DNA from: Polytrichum commune
Taxonomy: Eukaryota > Streptophyta > Polytrichopsida > Polytrichales > Polytrichaceae
Direction: 5' to 3'
Length of the DNA: 64,000 bases
Assembly: GCA_950295325.1 (NCBI GenBank)
Contig: OX485806.1
Span: 13,082,001 to 13,146,000, forward strand
Both the position numbers and the translations under genes were made by a program. Numbering within the stretch: the stretch's first letter is position 1; every line of letters starts with the position of its first letter. Shown piece after piece: positions 5,441-53,329 of this stretch. A model generated the notes under the pieces. That model did not search any database, was not told where the DNA came from, and saw only the letters and a program-made list of their open reading frames with translations.

Positions 5441-5548
5441 AAGAACTCCTCTTTGATTTTTAATGGCATCCAACAACTCACAAAGTATCTTAAGAGAAGA
5501 AACATTTTTACTACAAAGTGTTTCTTGATGACGAGAAGATAAACCTAT

Positions 5549-7341: not shown

Positions 7342-9616
7342 GTGAGGTTAGATATGTGGGTTACAAGTGCAATCTGATATGAGGTTAGTTTGGACTTGTG
7401 GGTATAAGGGTGATCGAATGTAAGCTTAGAAAATTTTGAAATTCCAGGGCCAAATTGAGTGTCTCGGTCCCGAGACACAATTTCTGGTATTCAAACTGTA
7501 AACCCTACAATGATATTTGATATGGAAATCTAGATTTATTTGGTATAAGGGTACTATGATTTGACACCAAACATGTGTGTTTGAAGTGCAATCTAATGTT
7601 AGGTCTAGATATGCAAGTATTAAGGTCAAACTGATGTGAGGTTAGATATGTGGGTTACAAGTGCAATCTGATATGAGGTTAGTTTGGACTTGTGGGTATA
7701 AGGGTGATCTGATGTAAGCTTAGAAAATTTTGAAATACCAGGGCCGAGTTTGAGTGTCTCGGTCCCGAGACACATTTTCTGGTATTCAAACTGTAAACCC
7801 TACAATGATATTTGATATGGAAATCTAGATTTATTTGGTATAAGGGTACTATGATTTGACACCAAACATGTGTGTTTGAAGTGCAATCTAATGTTAGGTC
7901 TAGATATGCAAGTATTAAGGTCAAACTGATGTGAGGTTAGATATGTGGGTTACAAGTGCAATCTGATACGAGGTTAGTTTGGACTTGTGGGTATAAGGGT
8001 GATCTGATGTAAGCTTAGAAAATTTTGAAATTCCAGGGCCGAGTTTGAGTGTCTCGGTCCCGAGACACAATTTTTGGTATTCAAACTGTAAACCCTACAA
8101 TGATATTTGATATGGAAATCTAGATTTATTTGGTATAAGGGTACTATGATTTGACACCAAACATGTGTGTTTGAAGTGCAATCTAATGTTAGGTTTAGAT
8201 ATGCAAGTATTAAGGTCAAACTGATGTGAGGTTAGATATGTGGGTTACAAGTGCAATCTGATATGAGGTTAGTTTGGACTTGTGGGTATAAGGGTGATCT
8301 GATGTAAGCTTAGAAAATTTTGAAATACCAGGGCCGAGTTTGAGTGTTACGGTCCCGAGACACAATTTTTGGTATTCAAACTGTAAACCCTACAATGATA
8401 TTTGATATGGAAATCTAGATTTATTTGGTATAAGGGTACTATGATTTGACACCAAACATGTGTGTTTCAAGTGTAATCTAATGTTAGGTCTAGATATGCA
8501 AGTATTAAGGTCAAACTGATGTGAGGTTAGATATGTGGGTTACAAGTGCAATCTGATACGAGGTTAGTTTGGACTTGTGGGTATACGGGTAATGTGATTT
8601 AATTTTTGAAAATTTTGAAATTCCATGGCCGAGTTTGAGTGTCTCGGTGCCGAGACACAATTTTTGGTATTCAAACTGTAAACCCTACAATGATATTTGA
8701 TATGGAAATCTAGATTTATTTGGTATAAGGGTACTATGATTTGACACCAAACATGTGTGTTTGAAGTGCAATCTAATGTTAGGTCTAGATATGCAAGTAT
8801 TAAGGTCAAACTGATGTGAGGTTAGATATGTGGGTTACAAGTGCAATCTGATATGAGGTTAGTTTGGACTTGTGGGTATAAGGGTGATCTGATGTAAGCT
8901 TAGAAAATTTTGAAATACCAGGGCCGAGTTTGAGTGTCTCGGTCCCGAGACACATTTTCTGGTATTCAAACTGTAAACCCTACAATGATATTTGATATGG
9001 AAATCTAGATTTATTTGGTATAAGGGTACTGTGATTTGACACCAAACATGTGTGTTTGAAGTGCAATCTAATGTTAGGTTTAGATATGCAAGTATTAAGG
9101 TCAAACTGATGTGAGGTTAGATATGTGGGTTACAAGTGCAATCTGATATGAGGTTAGTTTGGACTTGTGGGTATAAGGGTGATCTCATGTAAGCTTAGAA
9201 AATTTTGAAATTCCAGGGCCGAGTTTCAGTGTTACGGTCCCGAGATACAATTTTTGGTATTCAAATTGTAAACCCTACAATGATATTTGATATGGAAATC
9301 TAGATTTATTTGCTATAAGGGTACTATGATTTGACACCAAACATGTGTGTTTGAAGTGCAATCTAATGTTAGGTCTAGATATGCAAGTATTAAGGTCAAA
9401 CTGATGTGAGGTTAGATATGTGGGTTACAAGTGCAATCTGATACGAGGTTAGTTTGGACTTGTGGGTATAAGGGTGATCTGATGTAAGCTTAGAAAATTT
9501 TGAAATTCCAGGGCCGAGTTTGAGTGTCTCGGTCCCGAGACACAATTTTTGGTATTCAAACTGTATACCCTACAATGATATTTGATATGGAAATCTAGAT
9601 TTATTTGGTATAAGGG
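7342..9616. repeat. 295-bp satellite array, left block (about 7.7 monomers)
   Basis: Near-identical monomers recur every 295 bp. Each contains a palindrome of the form GTGTCTCGGTCCCGAGACAC (9-bp arms, 2-bp spacer). This block is the more diverged one: spacers TC or TG occur, and two monomers (near 8344 and 9229) have a broken arm, TTACGG. Inside the monomer, 37-41-bp subrepeats beginning GGTTAG and containing AATCTGAT are visible, so the satellite grew from a shorter unit. The 81-residue minus-strand frames in each monomer are a by-product of the repetition and not genes. The array is interrupted after 9616 by a solo LTR. Confidence 0.95.
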
Positions 9617-9802
9617 TGTGAGCCCAAAAGGGTGCCCACATTTAGTCTTAGACCCTTGAAACGTTAGTTGATGCACTTTGAAGTAGCATGTTACTTCACA
9701 AAAATATAAAAAGAGTGAAATGTTAGTCTTAGAAGTACCATGTTGTAAGAGGCTAGGATGTGAGTTGTTATTGTGTTTTTACCTTCGGAAGGATTTGAGT
9801 GA

Positions 9803-11546: not shown

Positions 11547-14500
11547 AAGGGTACTATGATTTGACACCAAACATGTGTGTTTGAAGTGCAATCTAATGTT
11601 AGGTCTAGATATGCAAGTATTAAGGTCAAACTGATGTGAGGTTAGATATGTGGGTTACAAGTGCAATCTGATATGAGGTTAGTTTGGACTTGTGGGTATA
11701 AGGGTGATCTGATGTAAGCTTAGAAAATTTTGAAATTCCAGGGCCGAGTTTGAGTGTCTCGGTCCCGAGACACAATTTTTGGTATTCAAACTGTAAACCC
11801 TACAATGATATTTGATATGGAAATCTAGATTTATTTGGTATAAGGGTACTATGATTTGACACCAAACATGTGTGTTTGAAGTGCAATCTAATGTTAGGTC
11901 TAGATATGCAAGTATTAAGGTCAAACTGATGTGAGGTTAGATATGTGGGTTACAAGTGCAATCTGATACGAGGTTAGTTTGGACTTGTGGGTATAAGGGT
12001 GATCTGATGTAAGCTTAGAAAATTTTGAAATTCCAGGGCCGAGTTTGAGTGTCTCGGCCCCGAGACACATTTTCTGGTATTCAAACTGTAAACCCTACAA
12101 TGATATTTGATATGGAAATCTAGATTTATTTGGTATAAGGGTACTATGATTTGACACCAAACATGTGTGTTTAAAGTGCAATCTAATGTTAGGTCTAGAT
12201 ATGCAAGTATTAAGGTCAAACTGATGTGAGGTTAGATATGTGGGTTACAAGTGCAATCTGATACGAGGTTAGTTTGGACTTGTGGGTATAAGGGTGATCT
12301 GATGTAAGCTTAGAAAATTTTGAAATTCCAGGGCCGAGTTTGAGTGTCTCGGCCCCGAGACACATTTTCTGGTATTCAAACTGTAAACCCTACAATGATA
12401 TTTGATATGGAAATCTAGATTTATTTGGTATAAGGGTACTCTGATTTGACACCAAACATGTGTGTTTAAAGTGTAATCTAATGTTAGGTCTAGATATGCA
12501 AGTATTAAGGTCAAACTGATGTGAGGTTAGATATGTGGGTTACAAGTGCAATCTGATACGAGGTTAGTTTGGACTTGTGGGTATAAGGGTGATCTGATGT
12601 AAGCTTAGAAAATTTTGAAATTCCAGGGCCGAGTTTGAGTGTCTCGGCCCCGAGACACATTTTCTGGTATTCAAACTGTAAACCCTACAATGATATTTGA
12701 TATGGAAATCTAGATTTATTTGGTATAAGGGTACTATGATTTGACACCAAACATGTGTGTTTAAAGTGCAATCTAATGTTAGGTCTAGATATGCAAGTAT
12801 TAAGGTCAAACTGATGTGAGGTTAGATATGTGGGTTACAAGTGCAATCTGATACGAGGTTAGTTTGGACTTGTGGGTATAAGGGTGATCTGATGTAAGCT
12901 TAGAAAATTTTGAAATTCCAGGGCCGAGTTTGAGTGTCTCGGCCCCGAGACACATTTTCTGGTATTCAAACTGTAAACCCTACAATGATATTTGATATGG
13001 AAATCTAGATTTATTTGGTATAAGGGTACTCTGATTTGACACCAAACATGTGTGTTTAAAGTGTAATCTAATGTTAGGTCTAGATATGCAAGTATTAAGG
13101 TCAAACTGATGTGAGGTTAGATATGTGGGTTACAAGTGCAATCTGATACGAGGTTAGTTTGGACTTGTGGGTATAAGGGTGATCTGATGTAAGCTTAGAA
13201 AATTTTGAAATTCCAGGGCCGAGTTTGAGTGTCTCGGCCCCGAGACACATTTTCTGGTATTCAAACTGTAAACCCTACAATGATATTTGATATGGAAATC
13301 TAGATTTATTTGGTATAAGGGTACTATGATTTGACACCAAACATGTGTGTTTAAAGTGCAATCTAATGTTAGGTCTAGATATGCAAGTATTAAGGTCAAA
13401 CTGATGTGAGGTTAGATATGTGGGTTACAAGTGCAATCTGATACGAGGTTAGTTTGGACTTGTGGGTATAAGGGTGATCTGATGTAAGCTTAGAAAATTT
13501 TGAAATTCCAGGGCCGAGTTTGAGTGTCTCGGCCCCGAGACACATTTTCTGGTATTCAAACTGTAAACCCTACAATGATATTTGATATGGAAATCTAGAT
13601 TTATTTGGTATAAGGGTACTATGATTTGACACCAAACATGTGTGTTTAAAGTGCAATCTAATGTTAGGTCTAGATATGCAAGTATTAAGGTCAAACTGAT
13701 GTGAGGTTAGATATGTGGGTTACAAGTGCAATCTGATACGAGGTTAGTTTGGACTTGTGGGTATAAGGGTGATCTGATGTAAGCTTAGAAAATTTTGAAA
13801 TTCCAGGGCCGAGTTTGAGTGTCTCGGCCCCGAGACACATTTTCTGGTATTCAAACTGTAAACCCTACAATGATATTTGATATGGAAATCTAGATTTATT
13901 TGGTATAAGGGTACTCTGATTTGACACCAAACATGTGTGTTTAAAGTGTAATCTAATGTTAGGTCTAGATATGCAAGTATTAAGGTCAAACTGATGTGAG
14001 GTTAGATATGTGGGTTACAAGTGCAATCTGATACGAGGTTAGTTTGGACTTGTGGGTATAAGGGTGATCTGATGTAAGCTTAGAAAATTTTGAAATTCCA
14101 GGGCCGAGTTTGAGTGTCTCGGCCCCGAGACACATTTTCTGGTATTCAAACTGTAAACCCTACAATGATATTTGATATGGAAATCTAGATTTATTTGGTA
14201 TAAGGGTACTATGATTTGACACCAAACATGTGTGTTTAAAGTGCAATCTAATGTTAGGTCTAGATATGCAAGTATTAAGGTCAAACTGATGTGAGGTTAG
14301 ATATGTGGGTTACAAGTGCAATCTGATACGAGGTTAGTTTGGACTTGTGGGTATAAGGGTGATCTGATGTAAGCTTAGAAAATTTTGAAATTCCAGGGCC
14401 GAGTTTGAGTGTCTCGGCCCCGAGACACATTTTCTGGTATTCAAACTGTAAACCCTACAATGATATTTGATATGGAAATCTAGATTTATTTGGTATAAGG

Positions 14501-17500
14501 GTACTATGATTTGACACCAAACATGTGTGTTTAAAGTGCAATCTAATGTTAGGTCTAGATATGCAAGTATTAAGGTCAAACTGATGTGAGGTTAGATATG
14601 TGGGTTACAAGTGCAATCTGATACGAGGTTAGTTTGGACTTGTGGGTATAAGGGTGATCTGATGTAAGCTTAGAAAATTTTGAAATTCCAGGGCCGAGTT
14701 TGAGTGTCTCGGCCCGAGACACATTTTCTGGTATTCAAACTGTAAACCCTACAATGATATTTGATATGGAAATCTAGATTTATTTGGTATAAGGGTACTA
14801 TGATTTGACACCAAACATGTGTGTTTAAAGTGCAATCTAATGTTAGGTCTAGATATGCAAGTATTAAGGTCAAACTGATGTGAGGTTAGATATGTGGGTT
14901 ACAAGTGCAATCTGATACGAGGTTAGTTTGGACTTGTGGGTATAAGGGTGATCTGATGTAAGCTTAGAAAATTTTGAAATTCCAGGGCCGAGTTTGTGTG
15001 TCTCGGCCCCGAGACACATTTTCTGGTATTCAAACTGTAAACCCTACAATGATATTTGATATGGAAATCTAGATTTATTTGGTATAAGGGTACTATGATT
15101 TGACACCAAACATGTGTGTTTAAAGTGCAATCTAATGTTAGGTCTAGATATGCAAGTATTAAGGTCAAACTGATGTGAGGTTAGATATGTGGGTTACAAG
15201 TGCAATCTGATACGAGGTTAGTTTGGACTTGTGGGTATAAGGGTGATCTGATGTAAGCTTAGAAAATTTTGAAATTCCAGGGCCGAGTTTGAGTGTCTCG
15301 GCCCCGAGACACATTTTCTGGTATTCAAACTGTAAACCCTACAGTGATATTTGATATGGAAATCTAGATTTATTTGGTATAAGGGTACTCTGATTTGACA
15401 CCAAACATGTGTGTTTAAAGTGTAATCTAATGTTAGGTCTAGATATGCAAGTATTAAGGTCAAACTGATGTGAGGTTAGATATGTGGGTTACAAGTGCAA
15501 TCTGATACGAGGTTAGTTTGGACTTGTGGGTATAAGGGTGATCTGATGTAAGCTTAGAAAATTTTGAAATTCCAGGGCCGAGTTTGAGTGTCTCGGCCCC
15601 GAGACACATTTTCTGGTATTCAAACTGTAAACCCTACAATGATATTTGATATGGAAATCTAGATTTATTTGGTATAAGGGTACTATGATTTGACACCAAA
15701 CATGTGTGTTTAAAGTGCAATCTAATGTTAGGTCTAGATATGCAAGTATTAAGGTCAAACTGATGTGAGGTTAGATATGTGGGTTACAAGTGCAATCTGA
15801 TACGAGGTTAGTTTGGACTTGTGGGTATAAGGGTGATCTGATGTAAGCTTAGAAAATTTTGAAATTCCAGGGCCGAGTTTGAGTGTCTCGGCCCCGAGAC
15901 ACATTTTCTGGTATTCAAACTGTAAACCCTACAGTGATATTTGATATGGAAATCTAGATTTATTTGGTATAAGGGTACTCTGATTTGACACCAAACATGT
16001 GTGTTTAAAGTGTAATCTAATGTTAGGTCTAGATATGCAAGTATTAAGGTCAAACTGATGTGAGGTTAGATATGTGGGTTACAAGTGCAATCTGATACGA
16101 GGTTAGTTTGGACTTGTGGGTATAAGGGTGATCTGATGTAAGCTTAGAAAATTTTGAAATTCCAGGGCCGAGTTTGAGTGTCTCGGCCCCGAGACACATT
16201 TTCTGGTATTCAAACTGTAAACCCTACAATGATATTTGATATGGAAATCTAGATTTATTTGGTATAAGGGTACTATGATTTGACACCAAACATGTGTGTT
16301 TAAAGTGCAATCTAATGTTAGGTCTAGATATGCAAGTATTAAGGTCAAACTGATGTGAGGTTAGATATGTGGGTTACAAGTGCAATCTGATACGAGGTTA
16401 GTTTGGACTTGTGGGTATAAGGGTGATCTGATGTAAGCTTAGAAAATTTTGAAATTCCAGGGCCGAGTTTGAGTGGCTCGGCCCCGAGACACATTTTCTG
16501 GTATTCAAACTGTAAACCCTACAATGATATTTGATATGGAAATCTAGATTTATTTGGTATAAGGGTACTATGATTTGACACCAAACATGTGTGTTTAAAG
16601 TGCAATCTAATGTTAGGTCTAGATATGCAAGTATTAAGGTCAAACTGATGTGAGGTTAGATATGTGGGTTACAAGTGCAATCTGATACGAGGTTAGTTTG
16701 GACTTGTGGGTATAAGGGTGATCTGATGTAAGCTTAGAAAATTTTGAAATTCCAGGGCCGAGTTTGAGTGTCTCGGCCCCGAGACACATTTTCTGGTATT
16801 CAAACTGTAAACCCTACAGTGATATTTGATATGGAAATCTAGATTTATTTGGTATAAGGGTACTATGATTTGACACCAAACATGTGTGTTTAAAGTGCAA
16901 TCTAATGTTAGGTCTAGATATGCAAGTATTAAGGTCAAACTGATGTGAGGTTAGATATGTGGGTTACAAGTGCAATCTGATACGAGGTTAGTTTGGACTT
17001 GTGGGTATAAGGGTGATCTGATGTAAGCTTAGAAAATTTTGAAATTCCAGGGCCGAGTTTGAGTGTCTCGGCCCCGAGACACATTTTCTGGTATTCAAAC
17101 TGTAAACCCTACAGTGATATTTGATATGGAAATCTAGATTTATTTGGTATAAGGGTACTCTGATTTGACACCAAACATGTGTGTTTAAAGTGCAATCTAA
17201 TGTTAGGTCTAGATATGCAAGTATTAAGGTCAAACTGATGTGAGGTTAGATATGTGGGTTACAAGTGCAATCTGATACGAGGTTAGTTTGGACTTGTGGG
17301 TATAAGGGTGATCTGATGTAAGCTTAGAAAATTTTGAAATTCCAGGGCCGAGTTTGAGTGTCTCGGCCCCGAGACACATTTTCTGGTATTCAAACTGTAA
17401 ACCCTACAATGATATTTGATATGGAAATCTAGATTTATTTGGTATAAGGGTACTATGATTTGACACCAAACATGTGTGTTTAAAGTGTAATCTAATGTTA

Positions 17501-17975
17501 GGTCTAGATATGCAAGTATTAAGGTCAAACTGATGTGAGGTTAGATATGTGGGTTACAAGTGCAATCTGATACGAGGTTAGTTTGGACTTGTGGGTATAC
17601 GAGTAATGTGATTTAATTTTTGAAATTTTTGAAATTCCATGGCCGAGTTTGAGTGTCTCGGTGCCGAGACACAATTTTTGGTATTCAAACTGTAAACCCT
17701 ACAATGATATTTGATATGGAAATCTAGATTTATTTGGTATAAGGGTACTATGATTTGACACCAAACATGTGTGTTTGAAGTGCAATCTAATGTTAGGTCT
17801 AGATATGCAAGTATTAAGGTCAAACTGATGTGAGGTTAGATATGTGGGTTACAAGTGCAATCTGATACGAGGTTAGTTTGGACTTGTGGGTGTAAGGGTG
17901 ATCTGATGTAAGCTTAGAAAATTTTGAAATTCAGGGCCGAGTTTGAGTGTCTCAGTCCCGAGACACATTTTCTGG
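11547..17975. repeat. 295-bp satellite array, right block (about 22 monomers) with subfamily structure
   Basis: The array resumes in register after the solo LTR. The first and last monomers carry TTTGAAGTG and dyad spacers TC or TG, as in the left block. The central monomers (about 11.97-17.58 kb) carry TTTAAAGTG and spacer CC, and are much more uniform. Two linked variants alternate in the centre: type A (GTACTATG with AAAGTGCAATC) and type B (GTACTCTG with AAAGTGTAATC). The order is A B A B A A B A A A A B A B A A A followed by two mixed monomers. One monomer (near 14.7 kb) lost one base in the dyad spacer, and one (near 16.47 kb) has GTGGCTCGG in the left arm. The uniform centre points to recent expansion. 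Confidence 0.95.
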
Positions 17976-18478
17976 TTTTCAAAGTCTACTACCTACAATC
18001 ATAGTAGATATTGATATCTAGATATGCTTGTTATAAGTGTACTATGATATTATGTTAGAAATGTTTGTTAGAAGTGTAATCTGATCTAAGGTTTGATATC
18101 TGTAAGGATAGGTAGGTTTGAAATTGAATTTTAGAGTTGATTTCCAGTTTGTCGGTCCCGAGAGACTATTTGAGACTATCAAATTCTTCCAGCTCACTAT
18201 GACTTTAGGGGCTATAAGTGTAATCTGATATAAGTGTAACCTGATATGAGTGTAATCTTATATAAGTGTAATTTTATATATTGTAAATTTGCAATGTGAG
18301 CTAAGAGGGTGATCCGATGTAAGGATGAGTATTTCATGAGTTGAATATTTGTGCCTAGTACTAGTGTCTCGGTGCCGAGACATGTCTTTTGATGGTCAAA
18401 CAATACCACATACACTTATAACTGATGGCAACTGAGCTCATGTTCTCTCCTTGATTAACTAGTACATATATTTTGCAG
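17976..18478. repeat. degenerate satellite edge leading into the methyltransferase gene
   Basis: Past about 17975 the 295-bp pattern dissolves into 30-40-bp units (TATAAGTGTAATCTGATATGAG and similar). One more diverged dyad, GTGTCTCGGTGCCGAGACAT, occurs at about 18362-18381. A T-rich tract and TTTTGCAG at 18471-18478 form a good 3' splice site, so this region is probably the end of an intron in the 5' untranslated region of the next gene. Confidence 0.65.
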
Positions 18479-21400
18479 GTAGAGAACAACGCAATGGAGG
18501 ATGTTCCTGCTCTTTCTCTGTTTTCTCTAGACTATTCTGAAGAGGGTTAGGATGAGGATGAAGAGGGGCTTGGAGATAGAGATCCATATGAAGGGGATGA
18601 AGATGATATCAGGACCCGACAGAAACTTAATTCTGTTGCCACGATTTCTCGACTGAGAGTCCAACCCCTGAGTTTCTCAAGGTTCCCTATTCCCTTGTGC
18701 AGAATGTTGGCCATGCCTATGGTGAGGCCAACTCTCCCAAGTGATCTTGCTAAATTGGAGCAGGAGTTTGTGCATGGGTATAGAGAGGGTGCCTCGGTAT
18801 TTTATGTGACAATAACAAATGAAGAAGGGAAAACAAATGAGGTTACTGAGGCTGATAAGGCATCGTGGGGTCCTATTTGGAGTGCCAAAAATGAACAATT
18901 CAACTCCTTTCTTCTGTCCGTTCCAGAGTTAGCCGGTTTTACGAATTTGATGTTCTTTGTTTGTGACGGGAACCATAGGCGGCATGCTTGGTTGAACCAT
19001 ATTAAACGACTTCACAAAACAGAAGAGTCCTGGCATTTTTTGGTGGATAGCATCCTCCTTGACACCAAGGGAAAAATTGGTATTGTTATGCAAGTTATGC
19101 ATAATATCAACAAGTAAGTTTTCTAAGTCCATTTTTTGAGGTTTTCATCTATGTACATATATTATGTTGTTCTTGTCTTTAATATATGATTGTTACTTGT
19201 AGACATACGGAAGACTCTCACGTGAAGACAAACACAGTTCACACTCTATTTAGGGTGCAGAAGTATGGACTTATGCCGCTCGAACAGTACCAAAATATTT
19301 TGACTCCCTCTGACATTAAAAGGTGCAAGAAATCTCAAACTTCAAAGAAGACATGGTATTCATTAAATCTACATGTATTCACGAGCTTCATCTTCCAGGT
19401 ATGATGTGATGTTGATGCTTGATGATGTGATTACTCTTATATCTAATCCCTTTCAACATTTGGTACTTATAATTGATGTTTGAATGTTTTTGTTTCTTTA
19501 TGTGCTTTCATAACACCTTTTTGTCGCAGTTGTTTGATTACAAACTAACTATGGTAATCCCTTTCCAGCACGAACTGGCACTTGCTGCAGATGAGGGCGT
19601 TCGTCAACTTCTTGAGCAAACGGATGGAGAGGTGTCTGCTGCTGAAAAAGCAGCCGCCATGAAGGTCGCTGCTTCAAAGAGAGCTGAGACACTTCATAAG
19701 AAAATGTCAAAACTAGTTTGTGTTGCAAACCCAGATTTGACAGATGGATGGCTTCGGGAGGTATGTCCACTACTTTAAAACCCATTCTACATTTTTCAAG
19801 TAATTCATTAATCTCCATGATCTTAATATATTGCTCTATGGGTCACAGATTGCGCGTCACTATACTCTTAACTCAATTGCACCCGAGCTCAACTTAGAGA
19901 AATTGCAGTTGATCGCTACTGCAAAAGCATCACCCGCTTGTAAAATCAAATGGTTGGAATATTTCAATTCCTCTTCATCAACACGTGAGGCTCACAAACT
20001 GCCAACCAAGCCCACCAATGAGGACAAATTGCAGGCATTCCTAGCCAAGGCATGTTTTTGGGAAGGAGTGAGTACATAATCCCCTATGTACCCTTTAGTT
20101 CGGTGTTACTTGATTTGATCCCTTACATTAATTGGTCTTTCTCTTGGTTTCACGGTTATTTCAATATATGAATCGATGTTGCTCAAATTCTTGTTCATAT
20201 TCACTCTCTGTATATACAGATATCCGATCAGGCTTCCATTATATTTGAAGACACTTTGCGCCAAGACAGACTTGCTATCAACTTTGCACTACCCAGCGAG
20301 CCCTTGACCTTGGTTGCATATATCGAGGACTGTAGAATGAAATTATGGGACAACGCGTTTCCCACATTCTTCCGAGGGCAGGAGGCCTTTAACAAAACTC
20401 ACGAATTTGAGGGATTTAACGGGACAGACTTGATTGTCCGAAGAGTTATCTTTCGGTGAGTTCTCTCCTTTCATACTACAGTTCTATATGTGTGTTATAA
20501 GTGTACTCTCATATGATGTTAGTATGCACTTTGAGGTATTAGGGTAATCTGATATGAGGTTAGAAATTTGTGTTATATGTGAAATCTGGTGTGTGCTCTA
20601 CATTTGGTTGTATTAAGGGTTATATGTGAAATCTGATATGAGGTTATATATGGTTGATATAAGTTTAATCTCATATAAGGTTAGTTAGCAATGTTTGATA
20701 TCTACAGGTACTTCTTATAAGTGTACTCTGATATGAGGCTAGATATGTGTGTTATAAGTGCATTCTGATGTGATTTCTAGATATGCTTGTATTAAGGTCA
20801 ATCCGATATGAGGTTAGATTTGGGTGTTATAAGTTTAATATGATGTGAGGGTAATCTGATATAAGCTTAGTTAGTGATATCTGATATACGCTTAGTTAGT
20901 GACATTAGTTAGGGCCTAGTTTCATATAAGCCTAGAAATCTCTGAAATTCTAGGGCCTGGTTTGAGTGTCTCGGTCCCGAGACACATTTTCTGGTCTTCA
21001 AACTCTAAACCCTACAATGATATTTGATATTGAAATCTAGATTTACTTGGTATAAGGGTACTCTGATATGAGGGTAGAGATGTGTGTTTGCAGTGAAATA
21101 TGATGTGATGTCTAGATATTCAAGTAGTAAGGTCAAACTGATGTGAGGTTAGATATGTGGGTTACAAGTGCAATCTGATATGAGGTTAGTTTGCAATTGT
21201 GGGTATAAGGGTAATCTGATTTAAGCTTAGACATTTCTGATTTTCCAGGGCCGAGTTTGAGTCTCTCGGTCCCGAGACACATTTTCTGGTATTCAAACTC
21301 TACTACCTATAATCATAGTAGATATGTGTGTTATAAGTGCATTCTGATGTGATTTCTAGATATGCTTGTATTAAGGTCAATCCGATATGAGGTTAGATTT

Positions 21401-24400
21401 GTGTGTTATAAGTGTAATATGATGTGAGGGTAATCTGATATAAGCTTAGTTAGTGATATATGATATAAGTTTAGTTAGTGACATCTGATATAAGCTTAGT
21501 TAGGGTAGTCTGGTTTAAGCTTGGTTAGTGCAATCTGAGATTAGCTTAGGTAATGAAATCTGATACAATCTTAGTTAGGGGAGTATGATATAACCTTAGT
21601 TAGGGTAACCTGATATAAGCTTAGTTAGGGTCTAGTTTCATATAAGCCTAGAAATCTCTGAAATTCCAGGGCCTAGTTTGAGTGTCTCGGTCCCGAGACA
21701 CATTTTCTGGTATTCAAACTCTACTACCTACAAACATGGTTGCTATTGATATCTACCTATACTTGGTATAAGTGTACTCTGATATGAGGCTAGATATGTG
21801 TGTTATAAGTGCATTCTGATGTGATTTCTAGATATGCTTGTATTAAGGTCAATCCGATATGAGGTTAGATTTGTGTGTTATAAGTGGAATATGATGCGAG
21901 GGTAATCTGATATAAGCTTAGTTAGTGTTATATGATATAAGCTTAGTTAGTGACATCTGATTTGGCATAGTGTTTTGGTTTTTAATATGGCAGCTATGTC
22001 AATTGCAAGGTATTTAATGATGAGCTGTGTCTTTCCCGCAGGTATTTCAAGTACGAGCTCCTTGCAAAAGGAACAATAACAAAAGAAGATCTCCCTATAT
22101 TCCTCTCAGCATGGCTTGACAGGTCTAACTCCACGTGCATGTTCTCAGCAAATCAACAGCGTACATGGTCAACCTCACATCTCACTGGAGGTGGTTGGTA
22201 CCTTGACTGTGCTCCTAGTTTCACTCCTTCCTTTGAAACTGAACTTAGGAAGTCAAGGGAGGCAGTTGGAGAATCTGGTGTTGAGATGATTGACTTACAG
22301 GGCATAGAAGACGAGCATGAGAGGGCAAAGGCCCTATCCCGACGTCTAGAAGAGGATAGGAAGAAGGCGCTTAGAGTAAAGGAAGCAGAGGAGAAAGCCG
22401 CACAGAAAGAGATGGAAAAACTTCAAAAATCATTGGAGAAGACTACCATGAAGGGGAAAAAGAAGATGAACCCCCATTCTGAGCTAGAAGGTAAGAGTCC
22501 CGTTGCTCCAAGTCCAACCTATGAATCTGGTTCTCATGCTCCAACATTTTCTAGAGGAACAAAACGCGATTCCTCCTATGAGCAGTTGAGTCAAATTCCT
22601 ATTTTGACATCGGGGGAGGAGCTCAATATCCATATTCAAGAACTCATTCTCAACGCCTCAATGGAGGACGTTCTTGGCGGTGACACGGAGGAATTCACCC
22701 CTTCCTACAACGAGTTGAAAAGATTCATGCTCAAGGTACTGCTCTTCCTTAATTTTGTCATAACATGTTTGCATTTAAATTTATGCATTTCAATGTGGTC
22801 CACATTGAACATTCAGTAGGTACTACTTTTCATATTTCAGTAATCGGCCATAATTTTTTTCGGGACCGAATCATGGATCTGACGAGTAAGGCTGGTAGGG
22901 TATAGTTTATGCGGGACCCAAACACCATGTGGAGTGCGAGCTGAGCCCTCAATGGACTCGGCAATTTGTTTTGTGCTTGCAATCGGCCATTTGTTTTGTT
23001 GTACCATTTTGTTTGTGGAAATTAGGAGTTGAAATATGAATGGTGAGGTGTCATGTTAATTTTTGAATTTTTTTAGTCGGAACACTGTTTAAGTGAAATC
23101 CCCGCCCTCTCTGAATTCTACCTTCTCTGAAATATGATGTGAGGTCTAGATATGCAAGTATTAAGGTCAAACTGATGTGAGGTTAGATATGTGGGTTACA
23201 AGTGCAATCTGATATGAGGTTAGTTTGCAATTTTGGGTATTGGGGTAATATGAGGCAAGTTTAGAAATTTCTGATTTTCCAGGGCCGAGTTTGAGTGTCT
23301 CGGTCCCGAGACACATTTTCTGGTATTCAAACTGTAAACCCTACAATGATATTTGATATTCAAATCTAGATTTACTTGGTATAAGGGTACTCTGATATGA
23401 GACTACACATGTGTGTTTGAAGTGAAAATTGATGTGAGGTCTAGATATGCTAGTATTAAGGTCAAACTGATGTGAGGTTAGATATGTGGGTTACAAGTGC
23501 AATCTGATGTGAGGTCTAGATATGCTAGTATTAAGGTCAAACTGATGTGAGGTTAGTTTGCAATTGTGGGTATAAGGGTAATCTGATTTAAGCTTAGACA
23601 TTTCTGATTTTCCAGGGCCGAGTTTGAGTGTCTCGGTCCCGAGACACATTTTTTGGTATTCAAACTCTACTACCTACAATCATAGTAGATATTGATATCT
23701 AGATATGCTTGTTATAAGTGTACTCTGATATGATGTTAGAAATGTTTGTTAGAAGTGTAATATGATCTAAGGTTAGATATATGTGTTGTAAGGTCTATCT
23801 AAACTGGGGTTGAATATGGGTGATATTACTGTAATCTGATGGGAGATAAGATATCTGGGCTATATCTGTTATCTGATATCGGGTTAGATATGTGTGTGAT
23901 ATGAGGTTAGATATGTGTGTTATAAGTACAATCTGATGTGAGGTTATATTCGCATGTTATAAGGTCAATCTGATATGAGGTTGAATATGGGTGTCATAAA
24001 GGTACTTTGATCTGTGGTTAGATATGTGGGTAACAAGTGTAACCTGATAAGAGGTTAGATTTGTGTATTATATAAGGTTAGTAATGAGTATAGATATGTT
24101 TGATATAAGGGCTAGTACTAGGCAATGTACAAAGCAAGGAGGATTATTTTAACACCAAACCTGGTTGTCCTTTGATTGTGCAGCACTCAAAAGACAAAAC
24201 CCGGCACTACAAGGGTTCTCCGGATGACCATCCCTGTTTGGACTTGATTCTTGCAGATATACCGGAAGGTCTTCCTGTTCCTGGCATATCAAACCCACCG
24301 TCGTCCATTCCTGCTTGGAATCAAGAATCGAAAGAGTGGTTACAACCACTCTTTGACTTTGCCGACGAACATCTGCACGACGACGGGGCAATTATTTTGT

Positions 24401-25666
24401 TTCACCCTTTTCGCATGAGTACGAAGTCCAATATTCTTGGATATTGCAAATCGTATGGTTTTGCAATTCGGAAAGAGTGGTGGGGAATGAACCGCCTTCA
24501 TCTTACATCTCCAATAAATCCAGCATCAACTGTAAGATAAAGCTTAAGTCTTCTTTCTGATCACCGCATTCAGTTTCAATTTCATCCTTGAGGTAGTTCT
24601 GAGTGTAGACCCACCTAACTATTATACTCACGCAGTTCTGTTGTTCACTTTGTAAAGTAATATTGATCTTTATGTCTGGTACATTATAGACCATGAGGTT
24701 CGGTATTTCATTGGCGGTCAGGAGCGTGCCGGGGTCACCTGCATCGAAGTTTTCATTTCACCATGTCCCTGAATTGGATCCTTATGGGGTGGATGTTGCA
24801 CGGGATGATATTCTCCAGAACTTGGTCTCTCGTGAGGACCAGCTAACTAATGGATCCACACCATGGCGAGGGCCTCGTGAAAAGTCCGTGCTTCTAATGC
24901 AAATGCTAATTGAAGCATGTAGCTCCCCATGGGATATTATTCTAGACTGCACGGCAGCGACCGGTATGTCTTTGTAATCTTGCATTTCAGTTGGTTAATT
25001 GTTAATATTGTTTTGTTCTACAAAATTCATAGTGGTTTTTGTACTAAGTTTTTCCAACTTCTTTATTTGCAGGATCTTCCATTCATGCATGCCGCAATGT
25101 GCACCGTCACATTGCGGCATTAGAGGCTGATGTAGATATTTTTGAGGCCGTACTTGCTCCATTGATTATCTCTAGAGCAGCCTCTGAAGTCACTCTTGAA
25201 GACCGTGTCACCAGTGTAGAGGATCCTGAGGGTGAAGATATTCCCGTTGAGAGGATTGTGAAGAGATCTCGGTTTACTAAGTGAGTATGGTCCACAAATT
25301 CTCTTACCAGTGTTATGTTTTTTGCTGTCATTTCTTCTAAAGTTGAGTTATGAACATGGTACCATTGGCATTTGCAGATGCGATAAATTGAGCTATCCTA
25401 TTCACCGGCCTTTTTTTTGTGACCCTAAATTCTATCCCAGCCCTCCAAAGTCTTGGCAACTTCCTACATATGCAAATGTTATTGCTAATCAACTAGCTGG
25501 AGGTTCTTATCAGATTTTTACATCTAAATATCATCCGGGAAGAGTTTTAGAGTTTTTGGATATAGAAGCTTTAGAATTAGATGGTCAGGCCTCCTCTGAT
25601 GCATATATTAGTGATTCTAGAATGTCTTCATCATCACGTGATCACAGTGATTCGGATCTGATGTAA
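18479..25666 (+). CDS. ParB/Srx-like domain fused to a beta-class DNA methyltransferase-like domain (copy 1, ten coding exons)
   Basis: The exons I deduce are 18479-19113, 19203-19398, 19569-19760, 19849-20067, 20220-20455, 22042-22735, 24184-24531, 24690-24963, 25073-25280 and 25378-25666. All have GT-AG borders, phases agree throughout, and copies 2 and 3 share most borders. From the ATG at 18494 the frame would be 1091 residues but meets a TAG at 18548. From the ATG at 18704 it is 1021 residues and fully open. Using the latter numbering, a ParB/Srx-type DGNHR motif is at 88-92. A Lys/Glu-rich coiled coil is at about 505-565. Motif IV appears as ADIPEG near 673, followed by HDDGAIILFHP near 714-724. 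A motif X-like REKSVLLMQMLIEA begins near 828 and motif I LDCTAATG near 852. This permuted order is that of beta-class N4C/N6A methyltransferases. ParB-methyltransferase fusions are common in phages and bacteria. Activity is uncertain because DPPY is replaced by DIPE. Confidence 0.75.
18548..18550 (+). other. in-frame TAG near the N-terminus of copy 1
   Basis: From the ATG at 18494 the nineteenth codon is TAG, within an acidic stretch (SEEG-stop-DEDEEG). Everything after it is open for over a thousand codons. Because homology to copy 3 begins upstream of the next ATG, this looks like a recent nonsense mutation, or a site bypassed by use of the ATG at 18704. Confidence 0.8.
18704..19113 (+). 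other. ParB/Srx-like domain exon of copy 1
   Basis: This region reads MLAMPMVRPTL, then a hydrophobic beta-like stretch ASVFYVTI, then MFFVCDGNHRRHAW followed by WHFLVDSILL. In ParB N-terminal and sulfiredoxin-like folds a phosphate/nucleotide-binding signature of type DGNHR/DGHHR precedes a helix and a short beta strand, as here. Copies 2 and 3 read WDGNHRIQAW and DENHRLQAW at the same place. Upstream residues (RFPIPLCR.LAMP) also match copy 3, so the true protein N-terminus lies before 18704. Confidence 0.6.
20456..22041. repeat. intron 5 of copy 1, filled with relatives of the 295-bp satellite
   Basis: The intron holds 35-45-bp units (TTATAAGTGTACTCTGATATG and similar) and three dyads: 20966-20985 (perfect), 21261-21280 (one mismatch) and 21682-21701 (perfect). 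They are less regular and more diverged from each other than the upstream array, which suggests that the array arose from this older repeat. Confidence 0.85.
22736..24183. repeat. intron 6 of copy 1, second set of satellite relatives
   Basis: Dyads GTGTCTCGGTCCCGAGACAC are perfect at 23295-23314 and 23628-23647, each followed by ACATTTT.TGGTATTCAAACT as in the array. The first 350 bp of the intron are unique-looking. The acceptor is TTTGATTGTGCAG just before 24184. Confidence 0.85.
24184..25280 (+). other. methyltransferase-like region of copy 1 (exons 7-9)
   Basis: Exon 7 carries LDLILADIPEGLPVPGIS, the motif IV position, then WLQPLFDFADEHLHDDGAII and LFHP, which match the helix and strand after motif IV in beta-class enzymes. 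Exon 8 carries PREKSVLLMQMLIEA and WDIILDCTAATG, split by an intron. Exon 9 continues SSIHACRNVHRHIAALEAD. This corresponds to the usual KP-EL---LI---S--GD-VLDPFAGSGTT--A---GR--IG-E layout. Copy 3 reads ADLTAGTG at motif I, closer to the canonical form. Confidence 0.7.
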
Positions 25667-27131: not shown

Positions 27132-27307
27132 TCCACCACGGTTATAGGTTCTTTTTGTCAATAAATTTGTCAATAAATATTTCAAAAGTTAGCTCTACAC
27201 CACGGCCATAGGGCATGTTTCACCTGACAAAATTTCAATATTCTAGAAAACTTACCGCTCACCGCTCACCGCACACCGCTCACCGCTCGCAAAATAGCTT
27301 TTCCCCC
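27132..27307 (+). repeat. heptamer repeat module (CCACGGTTATAG ... GCTCACC repeats ... TAGCTTTTCCCCC)
   Basis: The module starts with CCACGGTTATAGG, which is repeated as CCACGGCCATAGG at 27201. It has a heptamer tract of type CCGCTCA at about 27253-27290 and ends AATAGCTTTTCCCCC. Sequence homologous to the methyltransferase genes begins immediately after it (copy 2). Similar modules occur at 29405-29582, 61435-61551 and, inverted, 47710-47925. Confidence 0.7.
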
Positions 27308-29296
27308 GAAGAGATCATTTCCACTTGGAGTCAACATTGGGTGACAGTGAACAACGAATTTGAGGCCATACTAGCCGCCGATCCAGTTCTCCAAGTCTTT
27401 TGTGGGAAGATGTTCCATGTTTGGGATGGCAACCACCGCATCCAAGCTTGGATGCCAATTATCAACAATGACCACCTGGATGACATTTATTGGCATTATA
27501 CGGTTGAGAATATTATTCTCGTTGTGAATGGGGATGTTGTATCCATGCTCACTGCCTTATACGAGGTCAACTGGTATGTTCTCATTGCAATCACAGGCTC
27601 TCTTGATTCCATCTCATTTTTTTCATGGTACCTCATCTCTAATTCCATCTTGATTTTCTGCCACCCAGGAGAAATGAAAATTCACATGTGGTTGCAAACC
27701 TTGTGCATCGGCTCTACCGCACTCAAAGTCTTGCCAAACAACCAGTGGAGTTCTTCAAGTCCTTGGTGTCTCAAGATGAAGTTCGAGTTGCGGAGACAAA
27801 ACAAAAGAATCCTAAACCAAGACTTGGTTCACCCTTACAACTGCATCGCTCACCTCCATACTCTACCAAGTTCAATTATTTTGATAGTCTTCCTATGGTT
27901 TCATTCCCACTTTTCTCTTCCTCCATATTTATATGTTACACGCATTACTAATATCCTTATTCTTTGCTTTTCAAATGTGTCAGCAAGAAATTGGAGTGGT
28001 TGCAGCATCTGCAGAGCGGAAATTTTATGATCGATATCCAAACCCTGAGGACTGGACATCTCAACGCGTTGATGACATCGTTGGCAAGGCGGTTACACGT
28101 GCCAAGGTGCATTTCAAAAGTGAGTTGAAGAAGATCTTACCAATTGCTGATCCTCAGAACACTCCTGCTTTTCTTGCTGAAGTAAAGACTCATTATGAGT
28201 GTCATGATGACGGTGTTGAGATGAAGTTAGAGAAGTTGTGGATGTTGGATGTGTCTGCCATGGATCCTTCCATGAAGGTACTTTGGCTTGAGCGTTGGAA
28301 TCAGCCTACAAGCCTTCGGGTGCAACTGAAATTCCCCAAGCAAGGTTTCAACGATGACGCCTTTTACACTTGACTGAATAAGGCAACATGGTGGGCTCAA
28401 GTATGTGATTCTCCACCTGCCCTCTTTGTTGAGTTCTCAAAAATTGTTGTTGAACTTTCATCTTCATTGCTAGTCCATTGCAAATTTGTTGTCTTCTGTG
28501 TTCATAACTCCTCTGTCTTGCTATGCAGTTGGCAGTGGAAGCACAAAAACTTCTCGATAGTGTCCTGCGTGATCAAAAGGCCACCATCAACTACCAACCT
28601 GATGGCCGGGATCCAATTCCCACCATTTTTTATTATATTGAGCAAATTCGCATTTCATTATGGGACACGGCATTCTTCCGCGAATTCGCAGTGGAGAAAG
28701 GAGTGAACAAGAACAACACTATCGACAAGTAGTACTTGTTCAAGCCAGCATTACACCGTATCCTGTACCGGTACTTCAAATATTCGCGCAGCCCGTGCAT
28801 GTAATCGCCACATTCTGGCTTTAGAGAGCGACTCTATGCTATTTTCTGAAGTCCTTGAACCCCTGGCAGTTCCACCTCCAAATGCTTCGACTTTCTCTAC
28901 TCCGGGCGACCTGATTGATGATGACGAGTCCATTCCAGATGCCCCTTTGCACGATATATGTGAGTAAGTCCACGCCTTCGTTGGTTGACATTGTTTTCTA
29001 TTTATCTCTTAATTGTAATCCATCCTTTGTCCATCTCTAAATCTTGCTCTGAACATGGCAGTTTGACAAATCCAAGGAGACCGCTACGAACTTCACCTTC
29101 AACTTGGTACTTTCCGTCGCCGTCCCCAAGTCCTCGTGGCTTACCTGTATATGCTAAAGCCATGGCCTTGGCGTATGCCCATGGTAGCTCTGGAAATTCG
29201 ACATCCTTCTTCATTCCTAAGAATCATGTTGACCCTCGAGTTCTATGCTACTTTGATTTAGAAGCAGTGTCGAGCTCTCTATGTAGCGGTGATTGA
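27308..29296 (+). pseudogene. ParB-methyltransferase copy 2, 5'-truncated and core-deleted
   Basis: Homology starts abruptly at EEIISTWSQHW, 50 residues before the ParB motif HVWDGNHRIQAW. Exons by homology are 27308-27573, 27669-about 27870, 27984-28400, 28529-28963 and 29062-29296. A TGA at 28371-28373 replaces a Trp conserved as Trp in copy 3, and a TAG at 28730-28732 stands where copy 3 has Gln. After RYFK (about 28770) the sequence jumps to ARACNRHILALESD, which belongs to exon 9. A deletion has therefore removed the coiled coil, motif IV, motif X and motif I. The intron present before RYFK in copies 1 and 3 is missing here. The C-terminal exon (RGLPVYAKAMALAY ... YFDLEAVSS) is intact. 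Confidence 0.8.
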
Positions 29297-29404: not shown

Positions 29405-29582
29405 TGAAAACCGCGGTCATAGAGCTCAAAAGTTTTCAAATTCTTGCTCTATTCCTGATTATAGGGCTTTATTTTCAATAAAAAAATATCTAAAAACTGT
29501 AGAAGTTATCGCTCACCGCTCAACGCTCACCGCTCACCGCTCAACGCTCACTGCTCACTGCTCACAGAATAGCATTCCTCCC
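29405..29582 (+). repeat. heptamer repeat module downstream of copy 2
   Basis: The module begins CCGCGGTCATAG. A GCTCACC/GCTCAAC heptamer tract runs from about 29512 to 29570 and ends AGAATAGCATTCCTCCC. It has the same order and orientation as the module upstream of copy 2, so copy 2 is bracketed by direct copies. Confidence 0.7.
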
Positions 29583-39343: not shown

Positions 39344-40947
39344 CAACGTGTAGAAGTGTAAGTATATAGAACAACAAATCTAGGAGTTGCCAAAGACTCA
39401 ATGAGGATTTGCATCGATTTAGAGTCCTTCTCCCTTTCACCTCTCCATGTCACTTTTTCATTTATCAATTGCAGGCTTGCCAATGTCAAATTAAACTACA
39501 CATCCAAAGCCTCCACGTCAACCTCAGACATTGCCCCCTTCTTTTGGAAAACAAACTTGGATTTGGGAATGGAGTGGAGGAACAAACATGATGTAAGAAT
39601 GACTAGTCTAAAAGACACTACTTGGCATTTAGTCTTAGATAATATTATCATAATAAAAATTGACAATTATTGAAAAGGAAGAATTGATAGAAGGAAAATA
39701 ACAGAGGGTCTCATACTTCCAAAGGTGCATCTGGTGGAGAACACCTCGGGGAGTTCACTGCGATAATATTAGAAAACAACGTGCGGGAAAATATAGGGTA
39801 ATTTATATTCATAAAAGGAAAAACTTAGAATTTTCTTAGAAGTAATATAGGTGAGTATGTATGATAAAATTTGTATTATAAATAATATAGGCTTGATACA
39901 AATAACGCATATTTTTAAAATATTTGTAAAAATATACCGTAGGATTTAAGGATCCTAGGTTTTTTTTGAAATAGGGTGTCCTTTGTGTTAAGAGGCGGGA
40001 AGATTTTGGATGAAAAACTACGTCGATTCAGTTAAAAAAATGGCATGAAAGAATGATGAGGGCGGATGATGGATTAGGATTTAGGAAAAATTGGGGGAGA
40101 ACGTTGCTGGAGGATTAGGTTTTGAGAGTTTTTTTCACCGTTCTGAGAGGTGGGATTTGCGGTTCAATGTTGGCGAGAGTTTTTTCTTCGACGTTGTTGA
40201 CTTTCTGAGAGGTGGGGTTTGCAGGCGGCTTGTGCATGTCATTCTCTCTCTCTGCTTTGAGTGGAGGTCAAATCTTCATAACGACCACACAACTTGATTG
40301 AGGAACATGGGCTGATTTTGTTGTTTGAAACTGTTTATGAACACTCTTAATGTAAAACCTTGCTGTGCCTTGGATTTTGGTGACTTAGTACTTTGAATGC
40401 TCTTAAACCCTTTGGAGCAAAATCAAATAATTATAATGAACATACCTAGCTTAAAATTAGAGCTTCATCAAATTTAAAAGTAATTATAGGGTCATTTAAA
40501 AAACAAGAAATTATATAATTATATAATAATACGGTACAAAAATTTAAGGATGGATAATTAAATACCCCTTGAATAAATACCCTTGTCACGCATGTGTATA
40601 CATATATACATGTCTAGTGAACTCCCCGAGGAGAACACAATGGCAACTCGTTGAAACCCCACCAATCTTTCTACAACGACAAACCATAAGAGGCTCGGAA
40701 GTTCCTTACATTGTCCCTAACATCTTTGTTCTTATGGACAAACAAAAACAAATGGCAATCTCCAATGAGATATGCAAAGGCCAATTCAAACAATGCCTCC
40801 ATCCTCTTGTTTTGGTGGTCATTCCAAAAAGGGACTGCATTGGGAGGAGAAAAAATACCAAACACAAGTAGGTTTTTTGGCAAATCAACACATATAAACT
40901 CAAACCACCAAAGCTCAATAAACCTTCATCTTCCGTCCACTCCCCAC
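39344..40947 (-). pseudogene. ParB-methyltransferase copy 4, minus strand, only exons 7 and 8 visible
   Basis: Exon 7 runs from 40947 (acceptor TTGCTAG, first codons VGSG as in copy 3) to 39717 and is interrupted by a DNA transposon at 39745-40630. It reads FICVDLPKNLLVFGIFSPP, WNDHQNKRMEALFELAFAYL, LFLFVHKNK and then KDWWGFNELPL. These match ADIPEGLPVPGISNPP, LFDFADEHL, ILFHP and KEWWGMNRLHL of copy 1. Exon 8 runs from 39633 to 39344 and reads SIPKSKF, then EVDVEALDV, a TAG, then VTWRGEREKDSKSMQILIES, matching copy 1 PWRGPREKSVLLMQMLIEA. The motif I position is degenerate (VVLYTYTSTR). A further stop follows YGLSL and there is a frameshift early in exon 7. I found no convincing exons 1-6, 9 or 10. 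Confidence 0.75.
39745..40630. mobile_element. 886-bp non-autonomous TIR DNA transposon with 8-bp TSD
   Basis: Perfect 15-bp terminal inverted repeats CTCGGGGAGTTCACT (39745-39759) and AGTGAACTCCCCGAG (40616-40630) are flanked by direct repeats GAGAACAC at 39737-39744 and 40631-40638. Removing the element and one TSD restores the exon 7 reading frame of copy 4 (LPLCSPPDAPLE). There is no transposase inside. The 8-bp TSD is typical of hAT-type elements, but the TIR sequence is not diagnostic. Confidence 0.9.
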
Positions 40948-47709: not shown

Positions 47710-47925
47710 CCCCTGAGGGAAGCTAACACATGAGCAATGAGCCGTGAAAAGTGAGCGGTGAGCGGTAACACATGAGCAATGAGCAGTAACATGTGAGCAA
47801 TGATACCAAATTTAGTAATTGGGCACGGTTTTAGGTAATATTTTCTAAAATTGGCACTCATATTTTTGGAATATAAAGTACTCGCATTCGGATTGAAGAA
47901 GAATGAAGGCAACTTATAACCATGG
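47710..47925 (-). repeat. heptamer repeat module, minus strand
   Basis: In reverse complement it begins CCATGGTTATAAG, contains ACCGCTCACCGCTCAC together with GCTCATTGCTCAT variants, and ends GTTAGCTTCCCTCAGGGG. It has the same order of parts as the modules next to copies 1-3. Confidence 0.6.
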
Positions 47926-48024
47926 ATACTTAGTCCATTGTTGGTTTTTATTATAGAAATCCACACTAATACATGTCACTTATTCAAATTCTCAAACATG
48001 CAGTCAAATACAACACTTGAAATA

Positions 48025-51000: not shown

Positions 51001-51600
51001 CATTTTTAATGCATCGACAATATTAAAACCTGAAGAAGATGAAGAAGGATGAAGAGGTGGACGTTGAGACGAAACACCATGGCGAATCAATTTCATGTAC
51101 GACGAATTGTGAGGGGTTTTATCAACATCCACAGAGACCAAAACCAGTTTGGAAGGCTTAGTCTTATCAGAAAAAGGTGATGTATCAGAAATATTAACAA
51201 CAGGACAAACCTCTTCATCTGAATCCAACAACACAAGTACATCATCGTCACTTGGTTCTATCTTGACAGTAGCCATACTAGGCACATTGACAGTAGATGC
51301 GCCAAACTCATTTGTCAACAAAGCAGTGGATGCTTGCATCTGAGAATTAGTAAGCCCTATAACTCTAAATGATTTTGGACCTAAAATCCAAAAGTATCCA
51401 TCTTGACACATGCTCTTCGGAATCAAAATTGTCTCCAAAATATCGTCGTTCGTGGAATACATCTCTTGCTCCACGTACATAGATCCTATCCGGAGATTGA
51501 ACCTCAAACTAAGCAATTCTTCTGAGACCTTCACATGATGATCATCCTCAAGAGGCAAAGTGAAGGGCACAAATGATCTAGATGCTTTAATGGTAGCCAT
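48025..51600 (-). pseudogene. MULE-type transposase-like gene with SWIM zinc finger, broken
   Basis: From the ATG at 51600 a 563-codon frame runs to a TAA at 49909-49911. It contains a Cys-rich segment (CKVCCSIPTCIVLCHA ... GVHEHPVSNGTC) and the transposase-like WTTLACHVYDSKYCKVLTIA followed by CCDM. The same frame continues past the TAA (EDGVAQTLFWENLNSVM), so the stop probably replaces Gln. After NNAHANWK the frame shifts (likely a small deletion) to VGRERTCLFHWSQSLDK. An intron is deduced at 49394-49499 (GTAAGT...TTTGCAG). The next exon starts DMTMDERAEMPPCNLAETIH. Another frameshift near 48870 leads to the last part, with a SWIM finger (CTCLDF ... YCKHLYY) and a stop at 48025. MULE/FAR1-like proteins with SWIM fingers are transposases or derived DNA-binding proteins. 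Confidence 0.65.
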
Positions 51601-52557: not shown

Positions 52558-52827
52558 ATGAGGAAAAAATCTAACATTGTAATGCAGAATTATATAGATG
52601 ATTTAGCAGAAATACAAAAGAGTATAGATTTGAATGATTTGGACGAAGAAAGTGAAGAGGCAAGAGAAGAGGTTGATGGGGATGTATACAATAATACTGC
52701 GAATAAGATTGGAGTCCACGATGATGGTGAAGAGGAAGAAAATGAGCAAATCAAGATATATGAAGAAGATGACAACAACTCCATGCACGGAAACGAAGAA
52801 GATGAAGATGGAGACAAAATTTATTGC
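52558..52827 (+). other. acidic open frame ending in a splice-donor consensus, unrecognised
   Basis: From the ATG at 52558 the frame gives a very acidic sequence (DEESEEAREEVDGD, HDDGEEEENEQ, GNEEDEDGDKIYC) and reaches TGC|GTAAGT at 52827. Purine-rich DNA can make such frames by chance. It lies upstream of copy 3, on the same strand, beyond the second satellite. A link as a 5' exon is possible but not shown. Confidence 0.25.
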
Positions 52828-52842
52828 GTAAGTATCTTTTGA

Positions 52843-53325: not shown

Positions 53326-53329
53326 TATG

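Follow-up and report, generated by a model that had tools for sequence, protein, structure and literature searches.

An intron-rich methyltransferase-fold gene of the moss Polytrichum commune is very probably the accessory gene of a Mutator-type DNA transposon

What does a spliced gene that joins a DGNHR box to a bacterial- or phage-like methyltransferase domain do in the genome of a moss, where it occurs in many copies? The question was raised by such a gene (gene A, or copy A) in a 64,000-nt stretch of Polytrichum commune (G000:C4:13082001-13146000; "the window" below means this whole stretch), part of a genome of 408 Mb in 64 contigs, of which C1-C7 measure 42-78 Mb each and sum to ~406 Mb. 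The initial annotation of this DNA described it as a spliced plant gene. Our analysis indicates instead, with high confidence, that it is the accessory (second) gene of a large, high-copy, two-gene Mutator-type DNA transposon, which is bounded by terminal inverted repeats and flanked by 9-bp target duplications, and its product is a candidate self-regulating or anti-silencing factor of that transposon. Gene A was compared with three further gene copies within the window (B, C and D, all broken) and with c1 on C1, c2 on C2 and c3 on C3, plus c5.

The transposon and its two genes

Copy c3 is complete at 20,603 bp (C3:55199781-55220383), with inverted ends of ~41 bp and the 9-bp duplication TATTACCGG on both sides, and c1 is complete at 33,321 bp (C1:44303622-44336942), with inverted ends of 32 bp, the 9-bp duplication CTTGATTTT on both sides and a left end within ~10 bp of the position predicted from c3; the target duplication is perfect in both of the two copies whose two family ends were located (c1 and c3). 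Joining the flanks of c3 yields an empty site in which a reverse-transcriptase-like frame spans the junction and changes frame once further downstream. Within the window, element D has imperfect inverted ends of ~66 bp, and its flanks TGCCCCTGA and TGCCCCTCA match at 8 of 9 positions, the right one beginning 3 nt beyond the end; these look like an old target duplication. Homology among c1, c3, c5 and A stops at window 27304-27306, with c2 concurring after extension, and the right ends of A, B and D are alike: in each, CCGCTCA-type heptamers in a row lead into similar terminal bases. The features concerned are as follows.

27254..27305, unstranded: right terminal repeat of element A (heptamer run and GCTCGCAAAATAGCTTTTCCC); homology with c1, c2, c3 and c5 ends here
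29510..29582, unstranded: right terminal repeat of copy B, by end comparison
47717..61551, unstranded: element D, with both terminal repeats, transposase-like gene, array and methyltransferase-fold gene, by sequence comparison
47717..47803, unstranded: left terminal inverted repeat of element D, by end comparison
61484..61551, unstranded: right terminal inverted repeat of element D, by end comparison
48025..51723, minus strand: transposase-like gene of element D (DDE-like core, CLFHW, CNLAE, SWIM-like CxC..CxH), by conserved motifs

Element A probably sits inside copy B, since the coding homology of B begins at 27308, at the edge of element A; the 5' half of B was not found. No mirror image of the right end of copy A was present within the window, and the left end of c2, whose left part is truncated, was not found in 10 kb more. 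Two other origins of the copies were rejected: an ordinary host gene family, as the copies have a common sharp right end, and retroposition, as they retain introns.

A transposase-like gene is carried by c1, c2 (where it is interrupted and truncated), c3 and element D. Upstream, past the tandem array, c2 and c3 have 4.3 kb in common with this gene on the opposite strand, and it is 39-64% identical, piecewise, to window 48025-51723, directly left of copy D. Kept between the proteins of c3 and element D are FDHVKR, FMAxNAxxNW, RTCLFHW, CNLAE and a CxC..CxH block, a pattern that we take to be that of Mutator-type transposases. Membership in the Mutator group is assigned because of the 9-bp duplications, the inverted ends and these motif patterns. 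In element D the second acidic position is N (FMANNAHANW at ~49789-50200, minus strand, against FMADNAQTNW in c3) and an in-frame stop lies in the core, so that its transposase is probably dead.

The second gene is represented in the window by the following exons and copies.

18480..19113, plus strand: exon 1 of copy A (ATG 18494; DGNHR box 18965-18979; main frame open from 18551); also in c1, c2, c3
18548..18550, plus strand: in-frame TAG in exon 1 of copy A; P0122 is open there
19203..19398, plus strand: exon 2 of copy A; also in c1, c2, c3
19569..19760, plus strand: exon 3 of copy A (an alternative acceptor gives start 19530); also in c1, c2, c3
19849..20067, plus strand: exon 4 of copy A; also in c1, c2, c3
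20220..20455, plus strand: exon 5 of copy A; also in c1, c2, c3
22042..22735, plus strand: exon 6 of copy A, charged linker; also in c1, c2, c3
24184..24531, plus strand: exon 7 of copy A, methyltransferase domain with DIPEGLPVPG at the motif IV position, by domain alignments
24690..24963, plus strand: exon 8 of copy A, motif X position (REKSVLLMQMLIEA) and start of motif I (DCTAATG), by Pfam PF01555
25073..25280, plus strand: exon 9 of copy A, end of motif I and motif II region, by Pfam PF01555 and 5hek
25378..25666, plus strand: exon 10 of copy A and stop; also in c1, c2, c3
27308..29296, plus strand: copy B, 5'-truncated and broken; its coding homology begins at the edge of element A
39349..40904, minus strand: copy C, methyltransferase-domain fragments with stops, by homology to gene A
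55709..60953, plus strand: methyltransferase-fold gene of element D (copy D), broken by in-frame stops and an insertion; its domain shares 43% identity with that of A

The ten exons of gene A, with GT..AG introns and compatible phases, give a frame that is open from 18551 and runs for 1,072 codons until the TAA at 25664-25666. Over a thousand open codons had been claimed, and this stands; the earlier count of 1,021 does not, and the reading frame has an in-frame stop: ATG 18494 lies downstream of a TTTTGCAG acceptor, and its frame runs into the TAG at codon 19, where the near-identical (97%) metagenomic protein P0122 is open. Putative 5' exons of A lie left of the window, at ~-13,900 to -13,160. 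The ten exons are not a chance chain, as they recur in independent copies: all ten were aligned in c1, c2 and c3, with no frameshift and with AG/GT at the junctions, save that in c2 an insertion of 1.7 kb lies where exon 10 starts. A 1.7-kb repeat at window 4880-6580 is 93% identical to that insertion. Counted from its ATG, c1 has zero stops in 1,091 codons, while c3 has a single stop, at codon 200, and c5 matches gene A only from inside exon 6 onwards. Over exons 7-10, 23 of 30 loci (L004-L033, with L006 being window copy A) are open when up to two gapped codons are tolerated; 19 are gap-free, and all seven splice dinucleotides are canonical in 14 of the 23 open loci. The spliced ten-exon structure was hence borne out, exons and splice sites recurring in c1, c2 and c3 and c1 being fully open, and so was the intron-rich multicopy family in a plant, here a moss. 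"Multicopy" was an understatement, with at least 189 genome matches in one exon-level protein search (140 of 2,211 candidates scored); the transposon is present in the genome in at least some hundred copies.

Two further features were noted in the window. At 416-3118 (minus strand) is the gag of a Ty3-type retrotransposon (PF03732 at 1.4e-12, Ty3_capsid at 1.5e-7), and open reading frames of a repeated protein, similar by eye around "..LPEELQ.IIFSKVWN..", lie at 3370-4555 and 43934-44428 (both minus strand) and had no Pfam match.

A methyltransferase fold with an altered motif IV

The C-terminal domain shows the permuted motif order IV..X..I of a beta-class amino-methyltransferase, and DGNHR, DIPEG, REK..LLMQMLIEA, DCTAATG and NVHRHIAALEAD were all located where the initial annotation had placed them. 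Pfam PF01555 matched at 27.1 bits against a cut-off of 26.7 when the domain was cut out and at 22.9 within the whole protein, over model positions 163-216 only, and 13 phage methylase records aligned at 21-25% identity across 84-94% of the domain. The folds closest to the predicted domain were MboIIA, HpyAVI and PvuII (structure prediction, partial models; the absence of a family from the matches of such searches does not exclude it). These three lines agree with the permuted domain first proposed, and a methyltransferase fold is highly likely on the predicted models. A whole-protein homology search with the 1,072-aa model gave no match, while domain alignments did yield relatives; among the best 120 of 176 matches of the methyltransferase-domain search, those with an organism name were two proteins of the moss Ceratodon purpureus. 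Scans of viral contigs with queries A1 and A2 returned no relative, and with P0001 three phage methylases were matched across 55-81 residues. The phage methylases L001, L002 and L003 have DVPY instead of DPPY as motif IV.

What sets the moss domain apart is motif IV, which reads D[ILMQ]PE against the canonical (D/N/S)PP(Y/F/W). Among the 81 relatives that cover the motif (out of the best 120 of 176), the Asp is kept in 80, the first Pro in none (I, L, M or Q instead) and the second Pro in 75; at the aromatic position 76 have Glu and none has Y, F or W. Motif I, canonically FxGxG, is mostly Dx[TSN]A[AG][TV]G, with Asp in 51/52 and Gly in 46/50 of the relatives listed. Carrying Glu at the position of the catalytic aromatic residue, the fold is probably a DNA- or S-adenosylmethionine (SAM)-binding module rather than a canonical methylase.

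It has to be asked nevertheless whether the protein, for all its unusual motif IV, actively methylates amino groups of DNA (or RNA), so that the element would mark its own DNA with N4-methylcytosine (4mC) or N6-methyladenine (6mA). The domain order, the fold and the SAM-motif region agree with beta-class enzymes, the Asp residues of motifs IV and I and the Gly of motif I are largely kept, and the DVPY of phage enzymes shows that the first Pro is not invariant. The Glu that replaces the aromatic residue in 76 of 81 relatives argues against activity, as does the bdelloid rotifer N4CMT, in which the change SPPY to APPA abolished 4mC (PMC8885841); N4CMT, with SPPY and a chromodomain, is encoded by a host gene, whereas the moss gene is transposon-borne and has D[ILMQ]PE and a DGNHR domain. 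The active modification system that had been suggested is therefore less likely given its catalytic tetrapeptide, and we regard it as unlikely.

At the other end of the protein, a profile of the N-terminal domain matched 408 database proteins at E up to 1, and in the best 120 of these the DGNHR box is nearly invariant (N in 120/120; D, G, H and R each in 119/120); in copy D it is altered to DENHR, after a stop. A DGxHR-type box is presumably linked to ParB/Srx. None of the ParB, Srx and DUF262 models matched any of 62 N-terminal members (Pfam and NCBIfam, E up to 10), and the other matches were scattered and weak (MSL3_chromo-like at 0.0024 in 1/62, DUF1015 at 0.11 in 3/62, HTH_metalloreg at 0.016 in 8/62). 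Three unnamed PHROGs families were matched at E 0.02-0.4, the best match in the PDB was eL24 at 0.11, no relatives of the domain were found in phages, plasmids (tblastn) or genome contigs, and the structure prediction gave a model too poor for fold comparison. Of the ParB/Srx-like N-terminus described initially, the conserved box holds and the domain is unestablished; judged from the motif, it is a plausible reading and no more.

Palindrome arrays and a possible role of the protein

Tandem arrays lie between the two genes of the element and in introns of the second, and nearly every unit holds a palindrome.

7342..9617, unstranded: 295-bp tandem array of element A, part 1, 7.7 units; palindrome GTGTCTCGGnnCCGAGACAC in 8 places, 6 perfect, by repeat and palindrome scan
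11547..18048, unstranded: 295-bp tandem array of element A, part 2, 22 units; palindrome GTGTCTCGGnnCCGAGACAC in 21 places, 19 perfect, by repeat and palindrome scan
20697..21946, unstranded: diverged array units with conserved palindromes in intron 5 of copy A, by homology and palindrome scan
23128..24061, unstranded: diverged array units with conserved palindromes in intron 6 of copy A, by homology and palindrome scan
53308..54936, unstranded: 64-bp tandem array and nearby repeats of element D, palindrome GGGTATTGGCGGnnCCGCCAATACCC in 16 places, by repeat and palindrome scan

When up to 3 mismatches are allowed, GTGTCTCGGnnCCGAGACAC occurs at 36 places in element A, against 0.01 expected in shuffles; outside the two arrays, 2 of them adjoin exon 1 and 5 lie in introns 5 and 6. 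In those seven diverged units the arms of the palindrome are identical at 15-18 of 18 positions, compared with 0.66-0.89 for the flanks. Element D has a different palindrome (0.00 places expected in shuffles), in or near 64-bp units between its two genes. In the C7 copy (L050; ~77% identical to A in exon 7 and ~88% in exon 1), 222-bp units that contain AGACTGTCTCGGGACCGAGACAGTCT occur upstream of exon 1 and again in the intron that precedes exon 7. When 222-bp and 295-bp units were compared by blastn, the palindrome was matched at E 0.005-0.06 and all else at E 0.21 or worse. The arrays of these two subfamilies have the palindrome in common and little else, and the more distant element D has another.

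Between the 295-bp arrays, at 9815-10764, are two 99% copies of a 477-bp unit with relatives inside copy D at 57902-58285. L050 also contains, at 62-4255 of its reverse complement, a second copy that is 29-49% identical, has a B-type terminal repeat and ends where the 222-bp palindrome array starts; this is a nested or adjoining element.

The best explanation overall, which we hold tentatively and with slightly more doubt than belief, is that the protein of the accessory gene binds the palindromes of its own element and governs that element. The transposase-like gene reads towards the left end and the methyltransferase-fold gene towards the right end; the protein of the latter, in which a long linker joins the DGNHR-box N-terminal domain to the permuted amino-methyltransferase fold, would bind the palindromic arrays and would through them govern expression, silencing or transposition. 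The model for this is VANC of the Arabidopsis VANDAL elements, which binds a short motif accumulated in tandem repeats of introns and upstream regions, causes loss of DNA methylation and has a target that differs between related elements (PMC5735166). The two systems are alike in a transposon with a transposase and accessory genes, in a motif that lies in tandem repeats of introns and upstream regions, and in the difference of that motif between related elements; they are unlike in that the moss accessory protein has a methyltransferase fold and the moss motif is a palindrome of 18-26 bp, and they are likened by layout, not by sequence. By this analogy, palindrome binding with VANC-like control is a possible mechanism, to be taken with somewhat greater reserve than the overall explanation.

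Several observations weigh against this explanation and its transposon setting. Shuffles do not model tandem repetition, which multiplies any motif, so that little can be concluded from the palindrome counts by themselves; more telling is that the palindrome persists in units that are otherwise dissimilar. L049, a second stretch of the class of the C7 copy, has no such palindrome array. The palindromes could also be transposase sites or hairpins instead of sites of the methyltransferase-fold protein. No transposase core was found in c5, and neither a core nor a left end for copy A down to -30,000 left of the window; Pfam transposase models did not match the transposase-like gene, with SWIM at 0.25 only. 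All copies were picked via the methyltransferase-fold gene, so that the linkage is seen one way only and the survey is silent on the number of transposase genes without it, which were left uncounted. The signal of selection considered below is weak.

An alternative is self-recognition of the plasmid or phage type, in which the DGNHR (ParB/Srx-like) protein with its repurposed methyltransferase fold would load on parS-like palindrome arrays and shield or mark the whole element, protein and palindrome changing together between families. We think it unlikely. In ParB/parS partition systems, too, a DGxHR box and palindrome arrays occur on the same mobile DNA; the moss protein lacks a ParB profile match, a demonstrated HTH and a partition role, and the likeness is an analogy only. 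Slightly less likely than such self-recognition is a direct part in transposition, for instance as a second subunit on the heptamer-rich ends. Such a part has been proposed for the second gene in other Mutator elements, A, B and D have heptamer runs at their ends in common, and the gene accompanies the transposase-like gene in c1, c2, c3 and D; the palindromes, by contrast, are internal and intronic, with none at the ends.

The coding sequences bear on whether the gene does anything for the element. Pooled over exons 7-10, the ratio of nonsynonymous to synonymous polymorphism (pN/pS) is 0.47 over 30 loci and 0.46 over the 23 open ones, against a neutral expectation of 0.81 from the substitution spectrum of the 3' region (55 differences), and 114 of 176 one-step variant codons are nonsynonymous versus 0.733 expected (one-sided p = 0.008; the test assumes independent variants, an assumption that does not fully hold). 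Between whole coding sequences (c1, c2, c3, partial c5 and the window copy), the corresponding substitution ratio (dN/dS) is 0.29-0.77. Passive cargo, a gene captured a single time and amplified by hitch-hiking with no use to the element, would fit the many broken copies (A, B, C and D in the window; 7 of 30 loci over exons 7-10 by the lenient rule) and is nonetheless improbable, as nonsynonymous variants are depleted, families only 43% identical retain exon order and DIPEG, and the DGNHR box is present in nearly all listed relatives.

Relation to known systems and implications

The moss gene resembles the phage and bacterial beta-class methylases (MboIIA, M1.HpyAVI, CcrM and the phage CR3 methylase) in motif order and fold, and differs from them in its catalytic motif, its ~700-residue N-terminal extension, its introns and its transposon context. 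With plant Mutator-like elements the transposon has in common 9-bp target duplications, inverted ends and a SWIM-like region with DDE-like transposase motifs, whereas its transposase domain is unrecognised by Pfam and its ends are heptamer-based; to our knowledge, its second gene has no counterpart among plant Mutator-like elements. Transposon-borne methyltransferases are known in other classes of element, such as DIRS elements. Among the listed matches of our searches of the open-access literature, there was no report of a ParB-methyltransferase gene in plants or transposons.

If the accessory protein does bind the palindromes of its own element, plants outside Arabidopsis would gain a transposon with its own sequence-specific regulator, derived from an otherwise bacterial or phage-like methyltransferase fold. 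Since the protein and its candidate target site are known in two diverged element families, the co-evolution of an anti-silencing factor and its motif would be directly testable. Eukaryotic "N6_N4_Mtase" annotations can, moreover, point to transposon genes whose active site has changed, a caution for claims of 4mC or 6mA in bryophytes.

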